A DNA stretch of 64,000 nucleotides from Methanoculleus thermophilus (GTDB lineage Archaea > Halobacteriota > Methanomicrobia > Methanomicrobiales > Methanoculleaceae), in assembly GCF_001571405.1 (NCBI RefSeq), contig NZ_BCNX01000008.1, positions 62,001 through 126,000 of the forward strand, given 5' to 3'. The notes beneath the pieces were generated by a model that was not told where the DNA came from, searched no databases, and saw nothing but the letters and a program-made list of their open reading frames with translations. A program made the position numbers and the translations under genes. Shown one piece after another: positions 17,930-62,856 of this stretch (its first letter is position 1; the number at the start of each line of letters is the position of its first letter).

Positions 17930-19018
17930 ATGCCGCACTCACTGCATGACCTGCTCGACGACGTGCTCGCCGGCCACCGGCTCACGGAAGAAGAGGCCGT
18001 CCGCCTCTTCTCGACCCGTGACCGTGACGTTCTTGCCATCGCCGCCGCCGCGGACGAACTCCGCGAGGAGAAGGTCGGCGATCGCGTCACCTACGTCCGT
18101 AACCAGAACATCCACGTCACCAACGTCTGCAAGAACCTCTGCGGATTCTGCGGCTTTGGGAGACGGGTAGACGATCCCGAGGCCTTCTGCGACGATATCG
18201 CAACCGTGCAGGAGAAGGCGAGAATTGCTGTGAGCCGGGACGTCACCGAGATCTGTCTCCTCTCAGGGGTTCATCCCGACTACACGCTCGACTCCTACGT
18301 CGACCTCATCTCCTGCGTCCGGGAGGTCGCGCCCGGCGTGGACATCCATACGGCAAGCCCCGACGAGATCGCCTGGGCCTCGGAGCGGAGCGGGGTATCG
18401 ACCGTCGAGGTCATCGAGCGGTTCCGCGAGGCAGGCCTTGGAACCCTCCAGGGGACGGCGGCCGAGATCCTGGTCGACGACGTCCGACAGGTCATCTGCC
18501 CGAATAAGTGCGACACGCAAACCTGGGTCCGGATCATCAAAGAGGCGCACAGGATGGGCATCCGCTCGACGGCGACGATCATGTACGGGTCCTGCGAGAG
18601 CGAGGCGGACCGCGCCCGGCACCTCGCAATCCTCCGCGATATCCAGGACGAGACCGGCGGGTTCACCGAGTTCGTACCCCTCTCGTTCATCTATCAAAAG
18701 ACCCCGCTCTACCGGGCGGGGCGGGCCCCGCCCGGCGCAACCGGACGGGAGGATATCCTGATGGTCGCGGTCGCCCGGCTCTTCCTCGACAACTTCGACC
18801 ATATCCAGGTTTCATGGGGGAAGGTGGGGACGAAGATGGCCGAGATGGCCCTCCTTGCCGGCGCCGACGATCTTGGAGGGACGATGTTCTGCGACGACGT
18901 CTCGGTCGACGCCGGCGGCGAGGGGGCCGACTACCTGGACCCGGCCGATATGCAGCGGCTCGCCGAGGACATCGGGCGGACGCTCCGGCAGCGGACGACG
19001 ACCTACGAGCTCGTGTAG
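17930..19018 (+). CDS. cofH: CofH-family radical SAM protein (F420 biosynthesis), copy 1
   Basis: FO synthase subunit 2 family, a radical SAM protein that joins tyrosine to the ribityl-uracil precursor of F420. 362 residues. The cluster motif CX3CX2C is CKNLCGFC, preceded by YVRNQNIHVTNV. Other signatures are TEICLLSGVHPDYTLDSYVD, QGTAAEILVDDVRQVICPNK and STATIMYG. AGGAG lies about ten bases upstream of the ATG. It is a close paralogue of the gene at 19,443; the N-terminal 60 residues are almost identical, but the 110-180 region differs (SPDEIAWASERSG here against NPMEVAYAARKSG). The partner CofG is not in the window, so which copy is the true FO synthase subunit is undecided. Confidence 0.88.
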   Translation: MPHSLHDLLDDVLAGHRLTEEEAVRLFSTRDRDVLAIAAAADELREEKVGDRVTYVRNQNIHVTNVCKNLCGFCGFGRRVDDPEAFCDDIATVQEKARIAVSRDVTEICLLSGVHPDYTLDSYVDLISCVREVAPGVDIHTASPDEIAWASERSGVSTVEVIERFREAGLGTLQGTAAEILVDDVRQVICPNKCDTQTWVRIIKEAHRMGIRSTATIMYGSCESEADRARHLAILRDIQDETGGFTEFVPLSFIYQKTPLYRAGRAPPGATGREDILMVAVARLFLDNFDHIQVSWGKVGTKMAEMALLAGADDLGGTMFCDDVSVDAGGEGADYLDPADMQRLAEDIGRTLRQRTTTYELV

Positions 19019-19025
19019 ACCGATC

Positions 19026-19343
19026 TCACATCCTGTTTAAGGCCTCCCGGCCGGACATCCCGATCTCGACGCGGCGCTGCACAGCCGGGAGGTTTGCCGC
19101 CTTCACCTCGGCGTCCATCAGGGAGTCCAGGTTCTCAAGGGTCGACTCCTCCGAGACCCCGACGATCGCCGCAGGGACGCCGGCGTTCGCCAGCGCCTCG
19201 ATATCGAACCCGGCGGTCCCGATCATCCCTTCGTCGGTCACCCAGGCCATCAGGCTGGTGTTCCCGACCGGGATGACGTAGCCGTATGCGTCCTTGTAGC
19301 TGAGCCTTGTGCGTTGATGGCAGAGGATCTGTTCTTGGGCCAT
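19026..19343 (-). CDS. DUF1805 (YunC-like) protein
   Basis: A 105-residue protein of the DUF1805 family, of unknown function. From ATG 19343 (MAQEQILCHQRTRLS) it shows the family core GYVIPVGNTSLMAWVTDEGM, GTAGFDIEALANAGVPAAIV and a C-terminal helix (EVKAANLPAVQRRVEIGMSG). A TATA-like TTATTAT at about 19,367-19,373 lies 26 bases before this ATG, supporting it over an ATG at 19361. It is inserted on the opposite strand between the two cofH copies, converging with copy 1 (7-base gap). Confidence 0.8.
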   Translation of the reverse strand: MAQEQILCHQRTRLSYKDAYGYVIPVGNTSLMAWVTDEGMIGTAGFDIEALANAGVPAAIVGVSEESTLENLDSLMDAEVKAANLPAVQRRVEIGMSGREALNRM

Positions 19344-19442
19344 GACTGGCGGGATACTCACGAGGGATAATAAGTCTTGTGCCCGCTCCCGCGCGCCCGA
19401 AAATTCTTCCCCTCAAACGTCTCAGGGAGATTATCCTAGAGT

Positions 19443-20534
19443 ATGACGACGCTTCGACTGTTACTTCGCGATCTGCTCGCCGGTCACCGGCTCACGGAAG
19501 AGGAGGCCGTTCGCCTCTTCTCGGTGAGGGGGCGGGACGTCTGGAAGATCGCCGCTGCCGCGGATGAACTCCGTGAGGAGAAGGTCGGCGATCGCGTCAC
19601 CTATGTCCGAAACCAGAACATCAACGTCACCAACCTCTGCGTGAACGCCTGCGGGTTCTGCGGATTTTCGCGTAAGCCCGGTGACCCCGACGTCTTCTGC
19701 TACGACGAAGCCACCATCCGGGAGAAGGCCCGGGCCGCACGAGACCGCTCGGTAACCGAGATCTGCACGGTCAGCGGCCTCCATCCAGAATTTGACGCTC
19801 GCTCCTACGTCAATATCTACTCCTGGATCCGGGACGAGGCGCCCACGGTTCACATCCACGCAAGCAACCCGATGGAGGTGGCGTATGCCGCAAGAAAGAG
19901 CGGCATCTCCACCCGGGAGGTGCTCGGGATGATGAAGAGCGCGGGGCTCTCGACCCTCTGCGGGACAGCGGCCGAGATCCTGGTCGACGACGTCCGGCGG
20001 GTCATCTGCCCGGAGAAGATCGATACGGAAACCTGGGTCCGGATCATCAAAGAGGCGCACGGGATGGGCATCCCCTCGACGGCGACGATCATGTACGGAG
20101 CCTATGAGGGCGTAGCGGACTGGGTGCGGCACCTTGCGATCCTCCGCGATATCCAGGACGAGACCGGCGGGTTCACCGAGTTTGTGCCCCTCTCCTTCGT
20201 CCACCCGAACACCCCGCTCTACCGGGCGGGGCATGCCAGGGCCGGGGCGACCGGGCGGGAGGATATCCTGATGGTCGCGATAGCCCGGCTATTCCTCGAC
20301 AACATCGACCACATCCAGGTCTCGTGGGTGAAGACGGGGACGAAGATGGCCGAGATGGCCCTCCTTGCCGGCGCCGACGACCTCGGGGGGACGCTCTATG
20401 AGGAGAGCATCTCCCGGGAGGCAGGGGCCCGGGGGACGAGTTACCTCGATCCGATCGAGATGCGCAGGATCGCCGAGGACCTCGGGAGGACGCTTAGGCA
20501 GCGGACGACACTCTACGCCCTCCTCCCGGAGTGA
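19443..20534 (+). CDS. cofH: CofH-family radical SAM protein (F420 biosynthesis), copy 2
   Basis: Second CofH paralogue, 363 residues. The radical SAM motif is CVNACGFC after YVRNQNINVTNL; TEICTVSGLHPEFDARSYVN, HIHASNPMEVAYAARKSG and CGTAAEILVDDVRRVICPEK follow. Residues around HASNPMEV resemble the canonical CofH pattern 'HAFSPMEV' (recalled) more than copy 1 does, so copy 2 is the better candidate for authentic FO synthase subunit 2 (inference). A GGGAG lies about 13 bases upstream of ATG. Nucleotide identity to copy 1 is very high over long stretches (for example 18,470-18,600 against 19,971-20,101), indicating recent duplication or gene conversion. Confidence 0.9.
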   Translation: MTTLRLLLRDLLAGHRLTEEEAVRLFSVRGRDVWKIAAAADELREEKVGDRVTYVRNQNINVTNLCVNACGFCGFSRKPGDPDVFCYDEATIREKARAARDRSVTEICTVSGLHPEFDARSYVNIYSWIRDEAPTVHIHASNPMEVAYAARKSGISTREVLGMMKSAGLSTLCGTAAEILVDDVRRVICPEKIDTETWVRIIKEAHGMGIPSTATIMYGAYEGVADWVRHLAILRDIQDETGGFTEFVPLSFVHPNTPLYRAGHARAGATGREDILMVAIARLFLDNIDHIQVSWVKTGTKMAEMALLAGADDLGGTLYEESISREAGARGTSYLDPIEMRRIAEDLGRTLRQRTTLYALLPE

Positions 20535-53435: not shown

Positions 53436-53861
53436 TCACTCCTGCTCCGTTCGGAACTCCCTGAATGCCGAAAGGCTGCGCTGGCCTTCGGGGGTTTCCC
53501 TGAGGAACTTGAGGAAGAGCCGGAGGTGGTTCAGCGTCTCCGGGCTCACGTGGTGCTCGAACTGACATGCGTCGATCTCTGCGGTATCGCCGGCGACACC
53601 GAGGAGTTCCAGGAGGTCCGCAAACGTCCGATGCCTTCTCTGGAGTTCCCGGGCCATCTCCTCGCCTGCCGGGGTCAGCGTGGCGCCCGCATAGGACTCA
53701 TAGACGATCAGCCCTTCCTGCTCCAGCTTCCGGAGCATCTCGGTCACCGACGGAGGTTTCACGTCGATCGCCTCCGCGATCCGCCCCGTCTGGGCGCGCC
53801 CCTCCTCCCTCACAAGGGAGCAGATGATCTCGATGTACTCTTCCTTGGTCTTTTGGCGCAT
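53436..53861 (-). CDS. DtxR/MntR-family metal-dependent repressor
   Basis: A 141-residue regulator. N-terminal winged helix: KTKEEYIEIICSLVREEGRA, AEAIDVKPPSVTEMLRKLEQ and LIVYESYAGATLTPAGEEMA. Dimerisation domain: RRHRTFADLLELLGVAGDTA, then DACQFEHHVSPETLNHLRLF with Cys, Glu and His as metal ligands (CxxEHxxS signature). There is no SH3-like third domain. Start ATG 53861 is chosen because AAGGAGAGG sits just upstream. It is the third gene after feoA and feoB, and the tandem TTAGG-N4-CCTAA sites before feoA are its likely targets. Confidence 0.92.
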   Translation of the reverse strand: MRQKTKEEYIEIICSLVREEGRAQTGRIAEAIDVKPPSVTEMLRKLEQEGLIVYESYAGATLTPAGEEMARELQRRHRTFADLLELLGVAGDTAEIDACQFEHHVSPETLNHLRLFLKFLRETPEGQRSLSAFREFRTEQE

Positions 53862-53871
53862 CTTCCTCTCC

Positions 53872-55587
53872 TTAAAACCCAATCAGCACCAGCCGCAGCG
53901 CACCCCCGACGAGGAGCGCCGCCGTCAGCATCACGCCTGCGGCGGTGAGCATCCCCCGCATCCCCATCTCCCGCAGGAGGACGACGAACGCCGCGACGCA
54001 CGGGAAGTAGATCGTGAGCATCGTCACCGCGATGACGAGCTGCTCGGGGGTCATCCCGAGGGGGACGAGCATCCCCACCGCGAGGTCCTTTCTGAGGAAC
54101 CCGACCAGGAGGGCGGCGGTCGCCTCGGCAGGGAGCCCGAGCCAGGTCTGCATCACCGGGGCGAAGACGGCCGCGAGCAGGTCGAAGAACCCGACCGCGT
54201 AGAGGAGGTTGACGAGCAGGATGCCGATGAAGAGGTACGGGACCGCCTCCCTGATAAACCCGCGCACCCGCATCCAGGCCTTCATGCCGGTGGCCCGGGG
54301 ATCCGGCATCCGGTAGGGCGGGATCTCTAAGAAGATCTCCGGGCACTGCCCCGGCACCATCCGGTCGAGGAGCAGGCCTACGGTGACGTAGACGAGCGCG
54401 AGGGTTCCAAAGACGATCGCCACGTAGCCCATTCCGAACGACCCGAGCACCCCGAAGACCATCGCGGTCTGGGCCATGCAGGGGACCGAGATCGAGACGA
54501 GGGTTATGGCGATGAACCGCTGCTTCTTCGTCTCCAGCACCCGGCTGGCCAGCACTCCGGGCACGTTGCACCCGAGCCCCAGGATGACCGGGACGATCCC
54601 GTAGCCGTGCAGGCCGAGCCGGTGGAAGAAGGTGTCGGCCAGCGTCGCGAGCCTGGGGAGGTAGCCGGTATCCTCGAGGATCGAGAGGACAATGTAGAAG
54701 GCCACGATGTAGGGGAGGATCATGGCGAACGGGACATACAGCCCCGTCGTCAGAAGCCCCATCGACTGCTCGTAGTCGATCCCGCCCTCAATGAACCGTC
54801 CGATCAGGATATCGTGCAGGAGGCCGGGACCGAGGAGGTCGCTCGCCTGCATGGCGATCGGGGTGTAGAGGTCGAAGAGCGGCTCGAAGACGAACGATAT
54901 CAGCCCTTCCCCGATCCACCTGACCGCCAGAAACGCGGCGGCGATGACGGCTGCGGCGATCAGGCCTCCGGTCACCGGCTTGATGCTCGCCTCCGCGATC
55001 CGGTCGCCGAGGGTGGGGTGGCGGTGGGTGACCACCTGGACCGCCCCGGTGATCCGGCCGACCGTCGCCCACCGCTCCTCCTCGCTCATGGGCCGGACCG
55101 TCCCCGAGGGGCGGGCCTCGCGGAACCGCTCGACGAGTTCCCGTATCCCCTCCCCGAAGAGGCCCACGGTCGGGACGACCGGCACCCCGAGGAGCCGCTC
55201 AAGTTCGGCGGCGTCGATCGCGATCCCCCGGTGCTTCGCCTCGTCCTGGAGGTTGAGCGCAACGACTGCGGAGACCCCGCGTTCCAGGAGTTCAAGGGTC
55301 AGGTAGAGGTTCCGCTCCAGGTTGGTTGCATCGATGACGTTGACGACGAGGTCCGCCTGATCAAGGACTACGGCAGCGACCTCTTCTGCGGGGTTTGAGG
55401 GGGAGAGGGAGTAGGTGCCGGGCGCGTCGATCACCTCGGCAGGCCCGGTCGGGGTCTGCATCTCCCCGCGGGAGACGTCGACGGTGGTCCCGGGGTAGTT
55501 CGAGGCGATGACCCGGGTGCCCGTCAGCCGCGAGAAGATCCCGCTCTTTCCGACGTTCGGGTTGCCCATCAGGACGATCGTCTTCAT
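53872..55587 (-). CDS. feoB: Ferrous iron transporter FeoB
   Basis: GTP-dependent Fe(II) importer of the cell membrane, 571 residues, on the short side for the family. G-domain: LMGNPNVGKSGIFSRLTGTR (G1), NYPGTTVDVSRG (G2), DAPGTYSL (G3), NLQD (G4). The membrane part has two Gate regions: LPYIVAFYIVLSILEDTGYL (Gate 1) and PYLFIGILLVNLLYAVGFFD (Gate 2 side), with LGLGCNVPGVLASRVLETKK between. The C-terminal helix bundle is compact. It overlaps feoA by 4 bases and abuts the DtxR gene. Confidence 0.95.
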   Translation of the reverse strand: MKTIVLMGNPNVGKSGIFSRLTGTRVIASNYPGTTVDVSRGEMQTPTGPAEVIDAPGTYSLSPSNPAEEVAAVVLDQADLVVNVIDATNLERNLYLTLELLERGVSAVVALNLQDEAKHRGIAIDAAELERLLGVPVVPTVGLFGEGIRELVERFREARPSGTVRPMSEEERWATVGRITGAVQVVTHRHPTLGDRIAEASIKPVTGGLIAAAVIAAAFLAVRWIGEGLISFVFEPLFDLYTPIAMQASDLLGPGLLHDILIGRFIEGGIDYEQSMGLLTTGLYVPFAMILPYIVAFYIVLSILEDTGYLPRLATLADTFFHRLGLHGYGIVPVILGLGCNVPGVLASRVLETKKQRFIAITLVSISVPCMAQTAMVFGVLGSFGMGYVAIVFGTLALVYVTVGLLLDRMVPGQCPEIFLEIPPYRMPDPRATGMKAWMRVRGFIREAVPYLFIGILLVNLLYAVGFFDLLAAVFAPVMQTWLGLPAEATAALLVGFLRKDLAVGMLVPLGMTPEQLVIAVTMLTIYFPCVAAFVVLLREMGMRGMLTAAGVMLTAALLVGGALRLVLIGF

Positions 55588-55826
55588 AGGGTAACCTCCA
55601 CGCCGACCCGCCGGGCCATCCCGCGGCCGAGTGTTATCTGCCGTCCGTCCACATCGACCACAACCGGGCCGCCGAGGGGGTGGCGGGCGACGACGGTGAG
55701 GGTCTTGCCTTCCCTGATACCGATGGTTCTGAGTTTCCGGATAAAGCTCGGAGTTCCGACAAACCGGGTGACGGTCCCCTGCGTGCCCGGTTCTAAATCA
55801 AGCAGCATCTCTTCCATGGCGATCAT
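55584..55826 (-). CDS. feoA: FeoA-family SH3-like iron transport protein
   Basis: An 80-residue SH3-fold protein, needed for FeoB function. MLLDLEPGTQGTVTRFVGTP then IRKLRTIGIREGKTLTVVAR and DVDGRQITLGRGMARRVGVE follow the FeoA pattern ('R.L..MGI..G....V....PLGGP..V...G..I.L...A..I.V'). ATG 55826 abuts the operator; ATG 55817 is an alternative (MEEMLLDLEP). A TATA-like GGTATATCAA (minus strand) near 55,873-55,882 would start transcription inside the operator. Confidence 0.92.
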   Translation of the reverse strand: MIAMEEMLLDLEPGTQGTVTRFVGTPSFIRKLRTIGIREGKTLTVVARHPLGGPVVVDVDGRQITLGRGMARRVGVEVTL

Positions 55827-55857
55827 TTTAGGTTTCCCTAATTTAGGTATGCCTAAA
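55827..55857. promoter_or_regulatory. Tandem iron-box-like operators upstream of feoA
   Basis: Two dyads lie side by side: TTAGG-TTTC-CCTAA (55,828-55,841) and TTTAGG-TATG-CCTAAA (55,842-55,857). TTAGG-N4-CCTAA resembles the ends of the IdeR/DtxR iron box. The sites cover the predicted transcription start of feoAB-dtxR, so an iron-loaded DtxR protein would repress its own operon. Confidence 0.78.
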
Positions 55858-55953
55858 TGTTGGCACAGGGGGTTGATATACCTTGCTCCGGCACGGAAGC
55901 GTAGGTTTATGCCCGGGCTCCGCGTAATTCGAGGAGAACGAGAGGTGACTCAT

Positions 55954-56901
55954 ATGACGACCGTGATTGCCGTTGACCTCGGCGCGACCAACCTCCGCGC
56001 CGCCCTGGTGGGTCCCGATGCGACCGTTCTCGCCCATGATGCCGTTCCGACCCCGACCGCGGGGTCCGGCGGGGAGGTGGTCACCGCCGCGATCATGGCA
56101 GAGGTGGAGGCGCTCCTTGCCCTGCCCGAAGGGCGCGACGTCACGGCGATCGGGGTCGCGTCGGCCGGGCCCCTGGACCTCGGCCGCGGGTGGGTCGTAC
56201 ACTCCCCGAACATGGCATTTCCGGTCGTGGAGATCACCGGCCCGCTCCGGGAGCGGTTCGGGTTGCCGGTCGCGCTCATCAACGACGCCCGGGCCGGCGT
56301 CCTCGGCGAGCGGTGGGCAGGCGCCGCCCGCGGCTCCGACAACGTCGTCTACGTCACCCTCTCGACCGGGATCGGGGGCGGTGCGGTGGTGAACGGCCGC
56401 CTTCTTCTCGGGATGACTGGAAATGCCGCCGAGATCGGGCACATCACGGTCGATACCCGCTACAACCTCGTCTGCGGGTGCGGCTATACAGGTCACTGGG
56501 AGGCCTACGCCTCTGCAAAGAACATCCCGCAGTTCTTTGCGGCGTGGCGAAAGGAGGCGGCTCCCGGCCCGGTCGCCTTCGACGCCTCCTCTAGTCAGGC
56601 GATCTTTGCGGCGGCCGGCGAGGGGGACCCGGTCGCCCTCGCCTTCATGGAGGCGCTCGGGGAGATGAACGCCAGGGGAATCTCAAGCGTCATCGTCGCC
56701 TACAACCCCGAGGTGCTCGTCCTCGACGGACCACTCGCCCGTTACCACGCAGATATCCTGATCCCGCACATGGAACCCCACATCGACCGCTACCTCGCCC
56801 TTCCCCGGATCGTCGTCTCCGAACTCGATGGACGGGCGCCGCTCCTCGGCGCGGCGGTCTATGCACTCGAAACGCTGCGACGGGAGGATCAAAAGCCATG
56901 A
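55954..56901 (+). CDS. ROK-family sugar kinase / glucokinase-like protein
   Basis: A 315-residue ROK kinase. MTTVIAVDLGATNLRAALVG is the phosphate-1 motif (DLGATNLR), VASAGPLDLGRGWVVHSPNM follows, INDARAGVLGERWAGAARGS contains the catalytic Asp, and VTLSTGIGGGAVVNGRLLLG is phosphate-2. The zinc-site region is AAEIGHITVDT...CGCGYTGHWEAYAS, with GHWE where the usual ROK motif has GCxE, so one Cys ligand is replaced by His. ATG 55954 has GAGGAG and GAGAGG upstream. Glucose or another sugar as substrate is not settled. Confidence 0.88.
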   Translation: MTTVIAVDLGATNLRAALVGPDATVLAHDAVPTPTAGSGGEVVTAAIMAEVEALLALPEGRDVTAIGVASAGPLDLGRGWVVHSPNMAFPVVEITGPLRERFGLPVALINDARAGVLGERWAGAARGSDNVVYVTLSTGIGGGAVVNGRLLLGMTGNAAEIGHITVDTRYNLVCGCGYTGHWEAYASAKNIPQFFAAWRKEAAPGPVAFDASSSQAIFAAAGEGDPVALAFMEALGEMNARGISSVIVAYNPEVLVLDGPLARYHADILIPHMEPHIDRYLALPRIVVSELDGRAPLLGAAVYALETLRREDQKP

Positions 56902-57407
56902 TCGAGATCTATCCGAATCTTTATGTCGGGACGCAGGAGGACTACGAGGTCATGGTGGAGGCTCACGAGACCTGGTGCGTGGTCCACGCCTGCCGGAGCC
57001 CCTACCACTGTCTCGCGGTCACGTACTCGCCGATCGCAACGGTGCCGCCGGACCACCCCGAGTACCTGGTTGCCCGGCGGGGGAACCGGCTGATGCTCAA
57101 CCTGGTTGATGCCCGCGACCCCGCCGATATCCCCAAAGAGGCGATCGACGCAGCCCTTCGGTTCATCGATGGGTGTCTTGGCAAAGGCCGGCAGGTGCTG
57201 GTCCACTGCGGCTTTGGGGTCTCCCGCTCGGCGGCGATCGGACTTCTGTACCTTGCGGCCTACACCGACCTCCTGCCGACGGGGAGCCTTGCCGAGGCCG
57301 AGGAGGCCTATCGCCGGATATACCCGCCCTACAAACCCGGCCGGGGGATGCGGGGGTTCCTTGAGGCGCATTGGGACGAGTATACGAAGAGACGGGTGGC
57401 GGCGTGA
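56898..57407 (+). CDS. Dual-specificity protein phosphatase-like protein
   Basis: A 169-residue cysteine phosphatase of the dual-specificity type. IEIYPNLYVGTQEDYEVMVE is the usual lead-in ('I...LYLG...'), the catalytic loop is VLVHCGFGVSRSAAIGLLYL (HC-x5-R), and the general acid is in NLVDARDPADIP. It has a long C-terminal extension with YPPYKPGRGMRGFLEAHWDE. It overlaps the ROK kinase stop by 4 bases and the IMPACT-like gene by 4 bases. Confidence 0.9.
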   Translation: MIEIYPNLYVGTQEDYEVMVEAHETWCVVHACRSPYHCLAVTYSPIATVPPDHPEYLVARRGNRLMLNLVDARDPADIPKEAIDAALRFIDGCLGKGRQVLVHCGFGVSRSAAIGLLYLAAYTDLLPTGSLAEAEEAYRRIYPPYKPGRGMRGFLEAHWDEYTKRRVAA

Positions 57408-57772
57408 GTGCAAAACCCCTCGGCGCCGCCGTGATCGAGGTCCGGCGGTCGCGGTTCTACGCGCATCTCTACCGGATCGAGGAGCCCGGGGATATCGCGC
57501 AGGTTCTTGCCGGCCACCACGAGGCCTATCGGAAGGCCGCTCACCACTGCGCCGCCTGGCGGTGCGGCACCGTCGAGGAGTTTCGGAGCGACGGTGAGGT
57601 CGGCCGGCCGGGGAGGATCCTCCTCGATCTCCTCCGGCGGCACGCCCTCGAGAGCCACGCGCTGGTCGTCTCGAGGATCTTCGGCGGAGTGCTCCTCGGC
57701 CCCGGGAACGTCGGGAGGGCGTTCCGCGACGCCGGGGAGGCCGCGATCCGCGAGGCCGGGCTCACCCGGTGA
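57404..57772 (+). CDS. IMPACT/YigZ-family (UPF0029) protein
   Basis: A 122-residue single-domain UPF0029 protein. From GTG 57404 (coupled to the phosphatase stop by GTGA): GAAVIEVRRSRFYAHLYRIE, GHHEAYRKAAHHCAAWRCGT, EVGRPGRILLDLLRRHALES and ALVVSRIFGGVLLGPGNVGR. 'H..A.H.C.A...G' and 'FGG..LG.G...RA' are the family signatures. It lacks the C-terminal ferredoxin-like domain of bacterial YigZ. The last codons (LTR-stop) lie within the left 24-bp direct repeat of the inserted cassette. Confidence 0.85.
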   Translation: MSAKPLGAAVIEVRRSRFYAHLYRIEEPGDIAQVLAGHHEAYRKAAHHCAAWRCGTVEEFRSDGEVGRPGRILLDLLRRHALESHALVVSRIFGGVLLGPGNVGRAFRDAGEAAIREAGLTR

Positions 57773-57785
57773 CGGGAGTCCGCCT
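57762..57785 (+). repeat. Left 24-bp direct repeat of the inserted cassette
   Basis: It starts TCACCCGGTGACGGGAGTCC and ends GCCT. The same 24 bases recur at 59,773-59,796. The first 11 bases (TCACC-C-GGTGA) are a perfect palindrome, as is common in recombination cores. It includes the stop codon of the IMPACT-like gene. Confidence 0.9.
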
Positions 57786-57957
57786 CTGTATGATCGAGCC
57801 ACCGTCCGGGAGTGGTTGTTGAGGTGGGGGCGACTTTGGCAGCTCCGTGAGATCCCCCTTAGAGAACGGATCGTTATTGTGCTGGTTGTTGTGCTTAAGA
57901 ATCAAAGATGGTTGCTATATGTGAGCAGCCACACAGCCAGGAGTAAGGCAGACCAGT

Positions 57958-58791
57958 TTAAAACCATTTATCCAGCGTTTGGTTTTGGTGTTTTGGTTCG
58001 ACATTTTTTGGAGGATAATATAGTCCTATTATCAACCATGTGGGCTGAAGTGAATGCATACCAACGACAAAATAGAGATCTCTCTCGTTTATCATCCAAG
58101 TGTAAAACTTTTCATATAACTTTTCCCACAGAATCTGGATGTCTCCATACTCTCGGCCCCATCTACGATATGCCTCCAATAGCTCCCAATCTTCGCATAA
58201 AATGTCATGATAACTATTCGAGCAGGTTAAGCAATTGTCAGAGCACTTAAAATGATATGCAAATGGGTATGGAATTTTTTGGATTATGGGGGTTTTTGAT
58301 CCATCAAGTCCTTGCCGATATTGGTTTGGATCTATGTAGATTTCAAGTTCTCGCCGGCTATAAAATTTTAGAATTTCTTTAGGTCTAATCAATCCAAGCG
58401 AGGTCTTATCTTCCTTGTATTTGTAATCTAATTGACTTAGAGAAAGATCAACTTTATCGAGAAGTAGTTTGTTGCGTTTATCCCAAATTTTGTTGTTGGA
58501 TGTGCCACTTAAACTACGATCTATAATAGTAATATCTGAACCTTCTTTGACTTTGTAACTCTCTTTTCTCCGGAGTTTTTCGGACTTTGCTTTCTGGCAG
58601 GTGACTTCCACAAGATCGAACTTATGAATCTTATTACTTCCAATATAATGTTTAGTTGGAATGGGATACAGCCGGATCCAATCCCCTTCTTCAGTAATTC
58701 CGGCTGTACAAGCGACCTCACTTCGAGATTTTCGGCTGTATTCAGGGTAGGTTTTTACTATAATCCAGACACGTTTTTTCTCCCAGCTCAC
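57958..58791 (-). CDS. Uncharacterised cassette protein, partner of the DUF488 gene
   Basis: A 277-residue protein: MSWEKKRVWIIVKTYPEYSR, then KSRSEVACTAGITEEGDWIR and LYPIPTKHYIG. I recall similar uncharacterised proteins ('VKTYP.PS.KY.E.VCTAGI...G.WIRLYPIPFR') beside DUF488 genes in variable regions; no name. In the last third FKCSDNCLTCSNSYHDILCE has CX3CX2C then His and Cys, a possible zinc site, followed by DWELLEAYRRW. Lys-, Ile- and Tyr-rich with A/T-ending codons, unlike the host. It overlaps the DUF488 gene by 4 bases. Confidence 0.75.
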   Translation of the reverse strand: MSWEKKRVWIIVKTYPEYSRKSRSEVACTAGITEEGDWIRLYPIPTKHYIGSNKIHKFDLVEVTCQKAKSEKLRRKESYKVKEGSDITIIDRSLSGTSNNKIWDKRNKLLLDKVDLSLSQLDYKYKEDKTSLGLIRPKEILKFYSRRELEIYIDPNQYRQGLDGSKTPIIQKIPYPFAYHFKCSDNCLTCSNSYHDILCEDWELLEAYRRWGREYGDIQILWEKLYEKFYTWMINERDLYFVVGMHSLQPTWLIIGLYYPPKNVEPKHQNQTLDKWF

Positions 58792-59603
58792 AAGTCAACA
58801 ATCTCCCACCCCTCCTTGCGTAATCGGTCTGCAATGACTCCTCTATGGCAGTGGCTGGCGTTTTTTTCAAAGCACATCAGGGCAATTTTTTCTTGACCCC
58901 CTAGAGCCTTTATTTTTTCGATCAGGTCCCCTTTATATTCAAGTTCGGAAGAATATTGTTTAAACAACTCCTGATATCCATTTTGGGTAATATCCCGTCT
59001 TCGACTTGATTCTATTCCAAGTTCGGGGATGTGAACGTACTTGATACAAAAGTTCTGTAAATTCCTTGATAATGCCTCTTTTGAGTATCCGTACTTTCTG
59101 CTGAACGCATTTCTCCTTACATCCACAAGTAAGGTAACGCGATTGGCGATCAGTGTCTGGAAGAATTGATCGATGTCTTTCCCCTCATACCCTATTGTTG
59201 TAATGCCCTTCTCTTCGGAAATTTGCTCCTTTTTTGGCTTCAATTTACTGAATATTGTATATTCCGGGAAATGATCATAGACATAGTCAATAATATCCAT
59301 GTCTGTAGAAGCCTGAAATTTTTGAGCATATGACGAGATAATCTCCTGCAAAAAGAAATCCGGCTTCGGAAATACGGTGTCGAGAATCTGGACATTTTCA
59401 TCTATTAATATGCTACCTGATTTTTCGAGATTAAACAGATCCCTATATAGTTGAAATGAGAAGGGGCCATACTTGTACGGAACGAAATTGTATAAGCTTC
59501 GCTCTTGTGAGATCAAGAACATCAACTTGACCAACTTCATTTTTGAAATCTTTCCATAACGAGCAATCAGAAAAAGAACTGCTCGTTGACTTTTATTTAT
59601 CAT
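58788..59603 (-). CDS. DUF488 protein with N-terminal SocA/Panacea-like domain
   Basis: A 271-residue two-part protein. Residues 1-125: AVLFLIARYGKISKMKLVKL, LMFLISQERSLYNFVPYKYG, then PFSFQLYRDLFNLEKSGSIL, resembling the SocA/Panacea (DUF4065) antitoxin fold ('K..KL.Y......YGP.....'). Residues 135-271 are DUF488: GITTIGYEGKDIDQFFQTLI, LLVDVRRNAFSRKYGYSKEA, and IALMCFEKNASHCHRGVIAD with the conserved Cys...CHR. DUF488 often appears in conflict-associated islands. First gene of the cassette pair. A toxin-antitoxin or defence role is inference. Confidence 0.82.
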   Translation of the reverse strand: MINKSQRAVLFLIARYGKISKMKLVKLMFLISQERSLYNFVPYKYGPFSFQLYRDLFNLEKSGSILIDENVQILDTVFPKPDFFLQEIISSYAQKFQASTDMDIIDYVYDHFPEYTIFSKLKPKKEQISEEKGITTIGYEGKDIDQFFQTLIANRVTLLVDVRRNAFSRKYGYSKEALSRNLQNFCIKYVHIPELGIESSRRRDITQNGYQELFKQYSSELEYKGDLIEKIKALGGQEKIALMCFEKNASHCHRGVIADRLRKEGWEIVDL

Positions 59604-59772
59604 CCTCGATAATCACCTGGTGACACATATATTATTAAGGTTTAGGTACGTGGGTTGAAAGTATTTGTTGTGCTTCCCGCAAACATATCGAGCATCTCCT
59701 TGGATGCTGCTCATCGTGATCAGGACCAATGTCTGTGATTGGTCGCCTTCTGTGTGTCCCACAAGACGGGTG
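59604..59772. other. Right-end non-coding part of the cassette
   Basis: A 169-base stretch upstream of the DUF488 gene. ACATATATTATTAA at 59,624-59,637 gives a plausible A+T-rich promoter on the minus strand for the cassette genes. No gene is seen. Confidence 0.4.
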
Positions 59773-59796
59773 TCACCCGGTGACGGGAGTCCGCCT
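59773..59796 (+). repeat. Right 24-bp direct repeat of the inserted cassette
   Basis: Exact copy of 57,762-57,785. On the minus strand it encodes the last residues (RRTPVTG-stop region) of the gene at 59,773-60,150, so that gene's end is intact here. Confidence 0.9.
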
Positions 59797-60150
59797 GCCG
59801 GCAGGGAGGACGGCGGCGATGGGCGCGAAGGCGGCGGCACGGGCGAGGACTGCCCGGAGTGCCGCGGCCGGGACAGTGTAGCGCTCCCCGGTGACGAGTT
59901 CAACGACGATCGCCGCTCCCGACCGAGACCGCTCCGCGCGGCCGACCGTGCCCCCGAGGACCATCCCCCAATCATCGCGGAGCGGTCCGACCCGGGCAGG
60001 GCGCCGGCCGTCGAGCGCCTGCCGGAGTTCCCCGACCCTGACCCCGAACCGCCGGCCGTGGAGCACGACCTCGACGATCCGGCAGGTTCTCCCCTCTTCA
60101 TCGACTGCGGCGCACCTGCACCTCTGGAGGTAGCCTGCTCTTTTCAGCAT
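59773..60150 (-). CDS. Hypothetical protein at the right edge of the cassette
   Basis: A 125-residue Arg/Ala/Val-rich protein: MLKRAGYLQRCRCAAVDEEG, RTCRIVEVVLHGRRFGVRVG, ELRQALDGRRPARVGPLRDD and VVELVTGERYTVPAAALRAV. No family recognised; it looks like two beta-rich units with 'RFGVRVGELRQAL' and 'RYTVPAAALRAVL', suggesting an internal repeat. The G+C-rich codons match the host, so it belongs to the chromosome, not the cassette. The stop codon lies in the right direct repeat. Confidence 0.6.
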   Translation of the reverse strand: MLKRAGYLQRCRCAAVDEEGRTCRIVEVVLHGRRFGVRVGELRQALDGRRPARVGPLRDDWGMVLGGTVGRAERSRSGAAIVVELVTGERYTVPAAALRAVLARAAAFAPIAAVLPAGRRTPVTG

Positions 60151-60205
60151 ACCCGGGAGTCTCCCGCACCTGACTAAAACCCGCGCCGTGCGCGGGGTGA
60201 AAGTG

Positions 60206-61609
60206 TCAATACCCCGGCATCTCCCACGCCCGCCACCTCGTCCGCCCGCGGGCGATGAGGAGCGCCGCCGGCAGGACGAGGAGGAGGCTTAAAAACCCGT
60301 ACGCGGGGTTGAGGAGCGACGCGAAGATCAGGAGAAGGAGCGCCGGGCTCGTCGCGAGGACGTAGCGGAGGAAGACCCCGGCATGGTAGAGCATGACGTT
60401 CGGGTAGAGGCCGGTGAGGTAGACGGTCACTGCCAGGGTGTAGGCAGAGACCGAGAGGAAGGTCGCGAGGGCCGGGAGGAACGACCCCGCCCCGCCGGCG
60501 GAGGTCGCCGCCGCAAGCACGAGGACCGCGAGCGGGAGGAGATTTGCGAGGGCGTAACTCTTCAGTTTGGCGTCGATCACCCCGGCGACCTCCACCGGCA
60601 GGAAGGCGTAGGCCGAGAAGGAGTCGAACTCCGTCAGCCAGTTGTAGATGGTGGCCGATATCACACCGAGGAGGACCGCAAAGACGACCAGGGGGTCGAT
60701 CCCCGGGATGAACCGGATCAGGATCCGGAGGCAGACCCAGATCAACCCGAGCGGGAGGAGGAAGGAGAAGATCACCTTCCCGGCGCCGCCTTCGCTCCGG
60801 AGGAGGTCGAGGGCGTCTTTGGCGATGAAGTGCGCGCTCCCGAGGCGGCGGAGCCTCCCGGCGATGGGGTCGAGGCTGTTTCTAAACCGCTTCGTCCGGT
60901 CCGGGTAGTCGACGGTGACGAGGAGGACCGAGGCGGCGGCCGGGACCAGGATGAGGAGGAGCGCGAGCACGAGCGGTCGGGGGGCCGGGTCGAGGAGGAA
61001 GGCGTATGGGGGGAAGACGGGGATGCCGGAATGTGAGACCGCAATCCCGGATACCGCGAGCACTGCGGCCGCTCCTATGAGGAGCCGGACGGAGCGTGCG
61101 TAGAGGGTCGAGAGGAGGCAGACGGCGGAGAGCCCCATGAGGAAGGCGAGCGTGAGCGAGACGAACGCGAGGAGGCCCAACATCGGGTCAAGGGAGACGA
61201 ACGGCGTTGCTGCGGTAAACCCCGCCGCGAAGGGGAGGACGTAGAGCAGGATGTAGTAGACGGTATCTTTTGCGAAAAAGGCGGCAAATATCCGCCGCTC
61301 CGATACCGGGAGGCTCCGGGAGGCGTAGGCGATCAGGCTTGCCTGCCCGAACCGGCGGTTCATGAACTCCCGGCCCATAAGCCCGAACGACCCGACCATC
61401 ACGCCCATGAGGAGGAAGAGGACCAGCGCCAGGAGGGCTGCCGTTTGGTGCGGGAGGACGTCCGAGAAGACCGGGAGGGTGAGCGACCCGAGGAAGGCGA
61501 ACGTGGCGACCACCACCGGGAAGAGGGCAAACCCCCGGCTCCCAAAGACCGTCGAGTGCATCCGCCACTCCTCCTTCATCATTGTAAAGAAGAGGTCAGG
61601 CACCGGCAT
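60206..61609 (-). CDS. ABC-2-like exporter permease
   Basis: A 467-residue, about 12-helix membrane protein. From ATG 61609 it reads MPVPDLFFTMMKEEWRMHST and overlaps the ATPase gene by 14 bases. Long hydrophobic runs include AALLALVLFLLMGVMVGSFG and LVLALLLILVPAAASVLLVT; cytoplasmic FMNRRFGQASLIAYASRSLP then VSERRIFAAFFAKDTVYYIL is typical of exporter permeases with an N-terminal ATPase partner. The substrate is unknown. The only cognate partner is the ATPase just upstream. Confidence 0.82.
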   Translation of the reverse strand: MPVPDLFFTMMKEEWRMHSTVFGSRGFALFPVVVATFAFLGSLTLPVFSDVLPHQTAALLALVLFLLMGVMVGSFGLMGREFMNRRFGQASLIAYASRSLPVSERRIFAAFFAKDTVYYILLYVLPFAAGFTAATPFVSLDPMLGLLAFVSLTLAFLMGLSAVCLLSTLYARSVRLLIGAAAVLAVSGIAVSHSGIPVFPPYAFLLDPAPRPLVLALLLILVPAAASVLLVTVDYPDRTKRFRNSLDPIAGRLRRLGSAHFIAKDALDLLRSEGGAGKVIFSFLLPLGLIWVCLRILIRFIPGIDPLVVFAVLLGVISATIYNWLTEFDSFSAYAFLPVEVAGVIDAKLKSYALANLLPLAVLVLAAATSAGGAGSFLPALATFLSVSAYTLAVTVYLTGLYPNVMLYHAGVFLRYVLATSPALLLLIFASLLNPAYGFLSLLLVLPAALLIARGRTRWRAWEMPGY

Positions 61610-62330
61610 CGCCCCGCACCAGGTCGAGGAAGAAACGTTCAAGGCTGCGGCCGGACCCGGCAAGGTCCTCGGTCCGGCCGCAGGAGAGGAGCCTGCCGTT
61701 ATGGATGACCCCGATCCGGTCGCAGATCTCGGCGGCGATCTCGAGGATGTGGGTGGAGAGGAAGACGGTCCCGCCGTCCTGGACGTAGTCCTCCAGGAAG
61801 TCCTTGACCGTCCGCTGCACGATCGGGTCCAGGTTGATCAGCGGTTCGTCGATGAGGGCGAGCCGGGGCCGGTGGAGGAAGGCCTGCGCAAACATCAGTT
61901 TCTGCCGGGTGCCCCGCGAGAGGTCTTTGCAGAGGACGTTGCGCTTCTCTCCGAACTCCAGCAGGTCAAACCAGTGGTCGCACCGCTCCTCGACGGCGTC
62001 AAGGTTGCGGATGCGGGCCACGAAGTGGAGGTACTCCTCGGCGGTGAGGAAACTCGGCGGGGTCTCCTGCTCGGGGATGATCCCGACGAGTCTGCGGACC
62101 GCGATGGGATCGTCGGCCACATCGAGCCCCATCACCCGGGCCGATCCCGCGGTCGGCCGGACCTGTCCGGTCAGCATCCGGATCATCGTCGTCTTGCCCG
62201 AGCCGTTCGGACCGAGCAGGCCGAAGAGTTCCCCTTCCGCGACCGAGAACGATACCCTGTTCACCGCGGTGACGCTGCCGTAGTCCTTCGTGAGGTCGAC
62301 CGCCTCGATCATCTGCCGCATTGTAGTCAT
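61596..62330 (-). CDS. ABC transporter ATP-binding protein (CcmA/NatA type)
   Basis: A 244-residue ATPase. MIEAVDLTKDYGSVTAVNRV, Walker A GPNGSGKTTMIRML, Q-loop IIPEQETPP, signature DLSRGTRQKLMFAQAFLHRP (LSRGT in place of LSGGQ), Walker B RLALIDEPLINLD and switch STHILEIA. The LINLDP phrase after Walker B is a slight departure from the usual GLDP. GGAGG is five bases before ATG, and a TATA-like TATTATAC (minus strand) lies at about 62,373-62,380. Confidence 0.93.
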   Translation of the reverse strand: MTTMRQMIEAVDLTKDYGSVTAVNRVSFSVAEGELFGLLGPNGSGKTTMIRMLTGQVRPTAGSARVMGLDVADDPIAVRRLVGIIPEQETPPSFLTAEEYLHFVARIRNLDAVEERCDHWFDLLEFGEKRNVLCKDLSRGTRQKLMFAQAFLHRPRLALIDEPLINLDPIVQRTVKDFLEDYVQDGGTVFLSTHILEIAAEICDRIGVIHNGRLLSCGRTEDLAGSGRSLERFFLDLVRGDAGA

Positions 62331-62538
62331 GCTCCTCCGGGTCTTTGGTGGATGAACATCGGCACAAGGCCAGTATAATACCTTTCGATCTATTTCGGCT
62401 GAACTGCGTGTGACTTAACAAAAACTTTCTGAACGCTTCCGGTTTTATCCCGGAAGGAACCTCGCTACTGTCCGAATATTGCCGGCGACGGAGAGAGGCG
62501 CAGGTTCTGCTCCCTGCAGGCCCGGGCCGCCCGGTAGC

Positions 62539-62552
62539 AGATATTAATATCT
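62539..62552 (+). promoter_or_regulatory. Palindromic TATA element of the 2TM-protein gene
   Basis: AGATATTAATATCT is a perfect 14-base palindrome whose centre is about 31 bases before ATG 62577. A TATA box inside a dyad can serve promoter and operator at once, and the leader would be only a few bases. Confidence 0.5.
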
Positions 62553-62576
62553 ACTCTGATTGTTTACCACATCCTC

Positions 62577-62856
62577 ATGGACGAACAGGAACGGTATGCG
62601 CGTGCAAAGGAGTATGTCGAGGGGCTGCAGGGCTTCTATGTGCACCTTGCCGCCTACATCATCGTCAACGTCCTCCTCTTCGCCTTCAACATCCTGACCG
62701 ATCCCGGGGGCCTCTGGTTCTACTGGGTGACCATCTTCTGGGGCGTGGGCCTGGCGCTGCACGCGATCGGCGTCTTTGCCGGGGACCGGGTCTTTGGCAG
62801 GGCGTGGGGAAGAGCGAACGATCCGCGAGATCATGGAGCGCGATCGGCGGCGGTGA
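62577..62856 (+). pseudogene. 2TM-domain protein with apparent one-base frameshift
   Basis: The N-terminal part is a normal 2TM-domain protein: MDEQERYARAKEYVEGLQGF, then YVHLAAYIIVNVLLFAFNIL and WFYWVTIFWGVGLALHAIGV with FGRAW. Family members go on with W-E-x-[RK]-x-I-[RK]-E-x-M. Here that ending is in the neighbouring frame: EERTIREIMERDRRR-stop (62,810-62,856). Removing one G from the GGGG at 62,806-62,809 restores WEERTIREIM. As written, the frame runs to 63,029 with an unlike tail that overlaps the next gene. It is either a real frameshift or a sequence error in the G run. Confidence 0.75.

Follow-up and report, generated by a model that had tools for sequence, protein, structure and literature searches.

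What placed an A+T-rich pair of genes exactly between two identical 24-bp direct repeats, each of which ends a host gene, and how have the two repeats come to be alike? The locus that raises these questions lies on contig C8 of Methanoculleus thermophilus (genome G000, called W below), in a window of 64,000 nucleotides, which is the whole stretch of DNA that was analysed. To answer them we examined the boundaries of the insert, its occurrence in other genomes of the genus, the sequence of the repeats in each carrier, and the identity of the flanking DNA to that of the nearest relative.

Repeats and boundaries of the cassette

The features of the locus are listed below by their positions in the window.

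57,404–57,772, plus strand: IMPACT/YigZ-family (UPF0029) gene, the left host gene (PF01205, 1e-22), kept in most relatives
57,762–57,785, plus strand: left 24-bp direct repeat, holding the IMPACT stop codon; the bases past its TGA are non-coding here
57,762–57,772: 11-base palindrome TCACCCGGTGA, the overlapping stop codons (TGA on each strand) of the two convergent genes at the empty site
57,786–57,957: left non-coding cassette end, matched by homologous ends in G033 and G015 and deleted from G019
57,958–58,791, minus strand: PDC-M19B, predicted tandem-OB protein of 277 aa (PADLOC PDC-M19B, 4e-62)
58,788–59,603, minus strand: PDC-M19A, 271 aa, with an N-terminal DarG-like winged-helix-type domain and DUF488 (PF04343, 1e-29; PADLOC PDC-M19A, 9e-78)
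59,604–59,772: right non-coding cassette end, 75% identical to the same end in G033, G019 and G015 and recognisable in G024
59,773–59,796, plus strand: right 24-bp direct repeat, in which the convergent 125-aa gene has its last 8 codons and its stop, and which opens a tract about 100% identical to G029
59,773–60,150, minus strand: conserved 125-aa gene (an open reading frame), the host gene on the right, convergent with IMPACT and with homologues in most of the genus

The two repeats are alike at all 24 bases, and theirs is not a common dispersed sequence: a pattern search allowing up to 3 mismatches found only these two copies in the whole 2.22-Mb genome. G+C falls from 0.65–0.70 outside the repeats to 0.37–0.41 between them (about 0.67 to 0.38). 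An earlier reading of the sequence, here called the first-pass annotation, had described an A+T-rich two-gene cassette bounded by exact 24-bp repeats, and its coordinates, the identity of the repeats and the drop in G+C were all confirmed. Its statement that the left repeat ends the IMPACT gene and the right repeat the converging gene was also correct, the stop codons lying at 57,772, within the left repeat, and at 59,773. The cassette consists of two overlapping minus-strand genes with non-coding DNA of about 170 bp on either side. As the first-pass annotation had reported, it contains no transposase or integrase among its open reading frames or profile matches; nor were terminal inverted repeats found at its ends. 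The right host gene had no Pfam or NCBIfam match. An att core or a tRNA target was rejected, there being no tRNA within the 64-kb window and no integrase nearby. Other repeats of at least 20 bp in the window are mostly short-spaced repeats within genes and those of a probable gene duplication at 18–20 kb, a pair of similar sequences at 18,065–20,380 with exact repeats of up to 45 bp at a spacing of 1510 bp.

Removal of one repeat together with the cassette restores an overlapping convergent gene pair, as had been predicted, and the origin of the repeat can be read from that junction. The 24-mer consists of host sequence, the stretch in which the 3' ends of the IMPACT and 125-aa genes overlap, and it is doubled at the filled site. 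The IMPACT gene ends in ...CGG TGA, and the 125-aa gene closes with what is seen from the opposite strand as TCA. In most relatives the same position reads TTACCCGGTGA or CTACCCGGTGA, where TCA is replaced by TTA or CTA, and therefore the perfect palindrome is not conserved. The palindrome to which the first-pass annotation drew attention is thus present in W, but as the meeting of two stop codons and not as a conserved feature.

Filled and empty sites in the genus

The distribution of the cassette was surveyed in 35 genomes of the genus by comparing filled and empty sites between species. The convergent gene overlap is present in most relatives. In the nearest relative, a sister species (G029), the site is empty, with a single exact 24-mer and both genes overlapping, and in G002 it is also empty, with a single copy carrying 2 mismatches; the empty site with one 24-base copy that was sought in relatives therefore exists. 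Two copies of the 24-mer occur in W alone among the 35 genomes, the other occurrences being single-copy empty sites, and a search of the same genomes for the 24-mer next to other cargo gave no instance. A hotspot with varied cargo was rejected, as no different cargo lies between the two genes anywhere in the genus.

Six of the 35 genomes carry the cassette (W, G033, G019, G015, G023, and G024), and in all six it adjoins the same conserved flanking genes (ROK-DUSP and/or ABC permease). In W the cassette is present as a single copy. The proposal that it is a unit of mobile cargo, moved by a recombinase acting in trans, is not borne out by this distribution, in which every carrier in the genus has the same cassette at the same locus. 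In W, G033, G019, and G015 the cassette lies between the IMPACT and 125-aa genes, and its ends in these four are homologous at or next to the repeat. In G023 and G024 it lies beside the same flanking genes, and because the IMPACT and 125-aa genes have been lost or have degenerated there, the original junctions can no longer be read; in G024 a remnant of the 125-aa gene, recognised by eye, remains beside the cassette, and the DNA to the left has been rearranged. The left cassette end of G033 (L036, 4902–5192) holds about 290 bp of additional element-like DNA, as does, probably, that of G015 at the same point, at the ends of contigs C26 and C14.

The carriers are scattered on the rpoB tree, requiring 6 changes by Fitch parsimony, or 1 gain and 13 losses. 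In each pair of the four close carriers, cassette identity (88–95%) exceeds flank identity (82–92%), and for G023 and G024 the cassette is 73–78% identical as against 77–84% for the flanks. Judged by sequence comparison, these identities fit an old resident of a single locus that is still carried, together with its flanks, from one species to another.

Sequence of the repeat in different hosts

The duplicated stretch is about 21 bp long across the carrier set. In W both copies read CGGGAGTCCGCCT after the TGA and the repeat is 24 bp; in G033 both copies read CGAGAGCCTGC at that place and the repeat is 20 bp. In G015 the left copy reads CGGGGGCCTGCC and the right copy CGAGAACCTGCC, with 3 differences, so that the two have diverged, and in G019 the left copy has been lost along with about 170 bp. 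As the duplicated sequence varies with the host, and its copies disagree in G015, these results argue against a fixed att core; the first-pass annotation had thought that 24 bases fit an att-type core better than a transposon target duplication.

Exchange tracts with the nearest relative

Over 172 kb of alignment the median identity of W to G029 in 500-bp windows was 86.6%. In 24 of the 329 windows, however, identity was 97% or more, and these were arranged as mosaic tracts, which we read from the alignment as recent recombination between the species. Two such tracts and the DNA between one of them and the cassette bear on the present locus.

53,855–56,375: left exchange tract with G029, about 99.8% identical (4 mismatches in 2.5 kb)
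56,376–57,761: native island directly left of the cassette, 1.4 kb, 87% identical to G029
59,772–62,802: right exchange tract with G029, 99.8% identical, starting at the junction of cassette and right repeat

The first 1410 bases of the right tract are identical to G029, and the run begins at 59,772, the base preceding the right repeat. Because the tract begins exactly at the right repeat, this copy appears to have been supplied by homologous exchange with an allele of the empty-site kind. Most simply, a G029-like allele lacking the cassette would have recombined here, as the donor, and the exchange would have halted at the cassette edge, where homology ended. The native island may have been kept from the recipient or returned by a second exchange. 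An assembly chimera at the 59,772 junction is unlikely, as comparable mosaic tracts occur elsewhere on the contig. Further W/G029 mosaic tracts, about 97–100% identical against a background of 87%, lie at −27,500 to −11,000 relative to the window (34.5–51 kb on C8). Conversion of a repeat is directly visible for the right copy of W only. The other suggestion made at first pass, a gain by recombination at a short site, comes close to this evidence in that a recent tract of homologous exchange, shared with an empty-site relative, has its exact boundary at the right copy.

Proposed history of the locus

We think that the cassette is probably an old insertion that has no recombinase of its own and has later been traded and trimmed by ordinary homologous recombination. 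It would have begun as a single ancient insertion at the place where two convergent genes overlap by their 3' ends. The insertion would have duplicated about 21–24 bp of the target, and because of this duplication both host genes stayed intact; slippage during replication, or a staggered break into which a linear fragment was end-joined, could have produced it. Afterwards the cassette would have been inherited, lost, and moved between species by homologous recombination through the flanking genes. Cassette-free alleles could recombine with either side up to the end of homology, and each such exchange would overwrite one repeat with the current host sequence and could keep the copies alike. Such overwriting may be the usual cause of repeat identity, and the right copy of W would then have come from a G029-like empty-site allele. 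The observations behind this history are the empty and filled sites, the single-locus distribution, the host-following repeat, and the tract that ends at the right copy. Against it stands the fact that the copies in G015 have drifted apart. There may also have been several separate insertions into the same site.

Three other histories make different use of the same observations. If the cassette were an old vertical resident that was never itself transferred but repeatedly lost, whether through deletion between the repeats or through replacement by an empty allele, it would be understandable that distant carriers share the locus and that in G023 and G024 cassette divergence matches or exceeds that of the flanks. 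On the rpoB tree, however, such a history needs 13 losses as against 6 changes, and the cassette of the four close carriers is more similar than the flanks, which would be unusual for a dispensable A+T-rich pair; we consider it unlikely. Integration of the cassette as cargo of an integrative element, by a tyrosine recombinase acting in trans on a 24-bp att core at a gene 3' end, would agree with the short direct repeats and the restored gene end, both of which are seen in tyrosine-recombinase islands at gene 3' ends. The search for a tyrosine recombinase elsewhere in the genome that the first-pass annotation had advised did yield three PF00589 matches, on other contigs (C3 and C4). Unlike such islands, in which an integrase in or near the element and a constant core shared by other cargo are expected, the cassette has no recombinase or hallmark gene, one type of cargo occupies the site, and the repeat varies with the host and has diverged in G015. 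Moreover, the 35 genomes hold no further 24-mers save those at single-copy empty sites, and the palindrome is accounted for by stop codons. Site-specific integration is, in our judgement, very improbable.

We are equally doubtful of a transposon-like insertion, made independently in each species by a transposase in trans with a target duplication of about 20–24 bp. This would explain why the copies agree within W and within G033 though the hosts differ, but the agreement in W is explained by exchange with empty alleles, and the copies in G015 disagree. A classical DNA transposon would have inverted repeats at its termini and copies at several loci; neither feature is present here, the cassette being single in the genome of W and always at the same site. 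We therefore return to an old insertion traded by homologous recombination as the probable history.

Predicted proteins of the cassette

The A gene (PDC-M19A) lies upstream of the B gene (PDC-M19B) and overlaps it by 4 bases. Together the two proteins match both components of PDC-M19 (phage defence candidate M19, PADLOC-DB 2.0); the components are adjacent and in the same order, the profile matches are strong, and no difference was seen at the protein level, PDC-M19 itself being a candidate system. In an alignment of 31 A sequences, G138-Y139, D161, R163, G196, R202, C244, E246, and C252-H253-R254 are kept, and the DUF488 motifs GYEG, D-x-R, C-x-E, and CHR are all present alongside the PF04343 match. 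The A model has a pLDDT of 94, and a search of sequences of solved structures gave a weak match of the N-terminal domain to DarG. We regard the A protein as a putative enzyme-like DUF488 protein.

In the B protein R75, E77, and D201-W202-E203 are kept among 39 aligned sequences, and C183, C187, H195, and C199 are conserved among close relatives. Its AlphaFold model has a pLDDT of 90; in Foldseek searches HIN-200 DNA sensors were the best matches (E 1e-4, with low TM-scores) and OB folds of RPA were also found. There was no match for B in the search of solved-structure sequences, and its relatives in phages and plasmids match the DuOB family weakly. The model thus resembles tandem-OB proteins, and the B protein is probably nucleic-acid-binding. 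The B gene of G015 (L085, 137–984) is broken by a stop codon or frameshift, and the pair is decaying in that genome. A defence role for the pair is plausible in view of the PDC-M19 matches, the restriction-modification (R-M) and MADS genes beside it elsewhere, and the B homologues on plasmids and in temperate phages, and we treat it as a candidate antiviral or defence system. Our literature searches found nothing direct on DUF488 in defence and no mention of PDC-M19 by name.

Comparison with known insertions

Insertion with long target duplication has been described for R-M genes of Helicobacter pylori (Nobusato et al. 2000, as cited in PMC1643837). Like those insertions, the present locus holds defence-type genes that are present in some genomes and absent from others, between direct duplications of host sequence that is single-copy at the empty site, with no transposase; terminal inverted repeats are likewise absent here. 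It differs in that the insert is a DUF488/tandem-OB pair in an archaeon with a duplication of 20–24 bp, and in that one copy marks the exact end of a homologous-exchange tract. The locus thus adds a case to a known pattern, and its novelty is modest; what it offers is an unusually clear view of exchange with empty alleles shaping the repeats. It provides, at base resolution and in an archaeon, a small defence-like module between duplicated gene ends without a recombinase, and it suggests that recombination with cassette-free alleles can sharpen repeats into mimics of att sites. Homologous exchange can accordingly be the source of short, perfect direct repeats around cargo.

The gene pair in other genomes

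A lies beside B, upstream and in the same direction, in 62 of 64 loci scanned in archaea, bacteria, and viral contigs, with type I and type IIG R-M and MADS genes among the neighbours; searches of viral contigs gave almost no relatives. To determine whether flanking repeats recur, we looked for exact direct repeats of at least 16 bp within 600 bp on both sides of the pair. Of 49 other pair loci 5 had them, as did 2 of 259 control units bounded by genes (Fisher P 0.0014), and 0.37% of placements of the same geometry had such repeats. Two of the five repeats are unique to the pair in their genomes and three look like dispersed repeats. In UBA207 (Methanomicrobiaceae) a genome-unique 31-bp direct repeat with 2 mismatches flanks the pair (L221, 5023–5053 and 6892–6922); one side of it is apparently in an hsdM gene fragment, and OLD/Toprim-like genes adjoin. 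In a member of the Leptospiraceae the pair, which sits between hsdR and an hsdS-like reading frame, is flanked by a 21-mer (L254, 4997–5017 and 6850–6870) that occurs only twice in the 5.8-Mb genome. The 330-bp repeat of G227, the 27-bp repeat of Methanothrix, and the 18-bp repeat of Sphaerochaeta are probably dispersed elements and were not considered further. No sequence is common to the flanking repeats, and a single repeat shared by all pairs across taxa was rejected.

The recurrence suggests that the pair may habitually insert with target duplication. A stronger form of this idea, that the pair is a minimal mobile defence unit that enters repeatedly with a 16–30 bp target duplication and without a transposase, perhaps with its own proteins acting on DNA ends or with host repair joining it in at staggered breaks, appears to us quite unlikely. 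The comparison does make the general entry of defence gene pairs with target duplication a testable matter. A 2.6-kb block containing the pair is 97% identical in two genomes of one genus, G125 and G037, and has differing surroundings (L093, 5457–8097; L095, 4035–6675), with no obvious repeats at the block edges. B homologues also occur on plasmids and in temperate phages of Gordonia; in Gordonia phage Nymphadora (L176, 3483–4780) the B homologue and a DUF488 gene, annotated as a 'HipA toxin', lie beside the immunity repressor and integrase.
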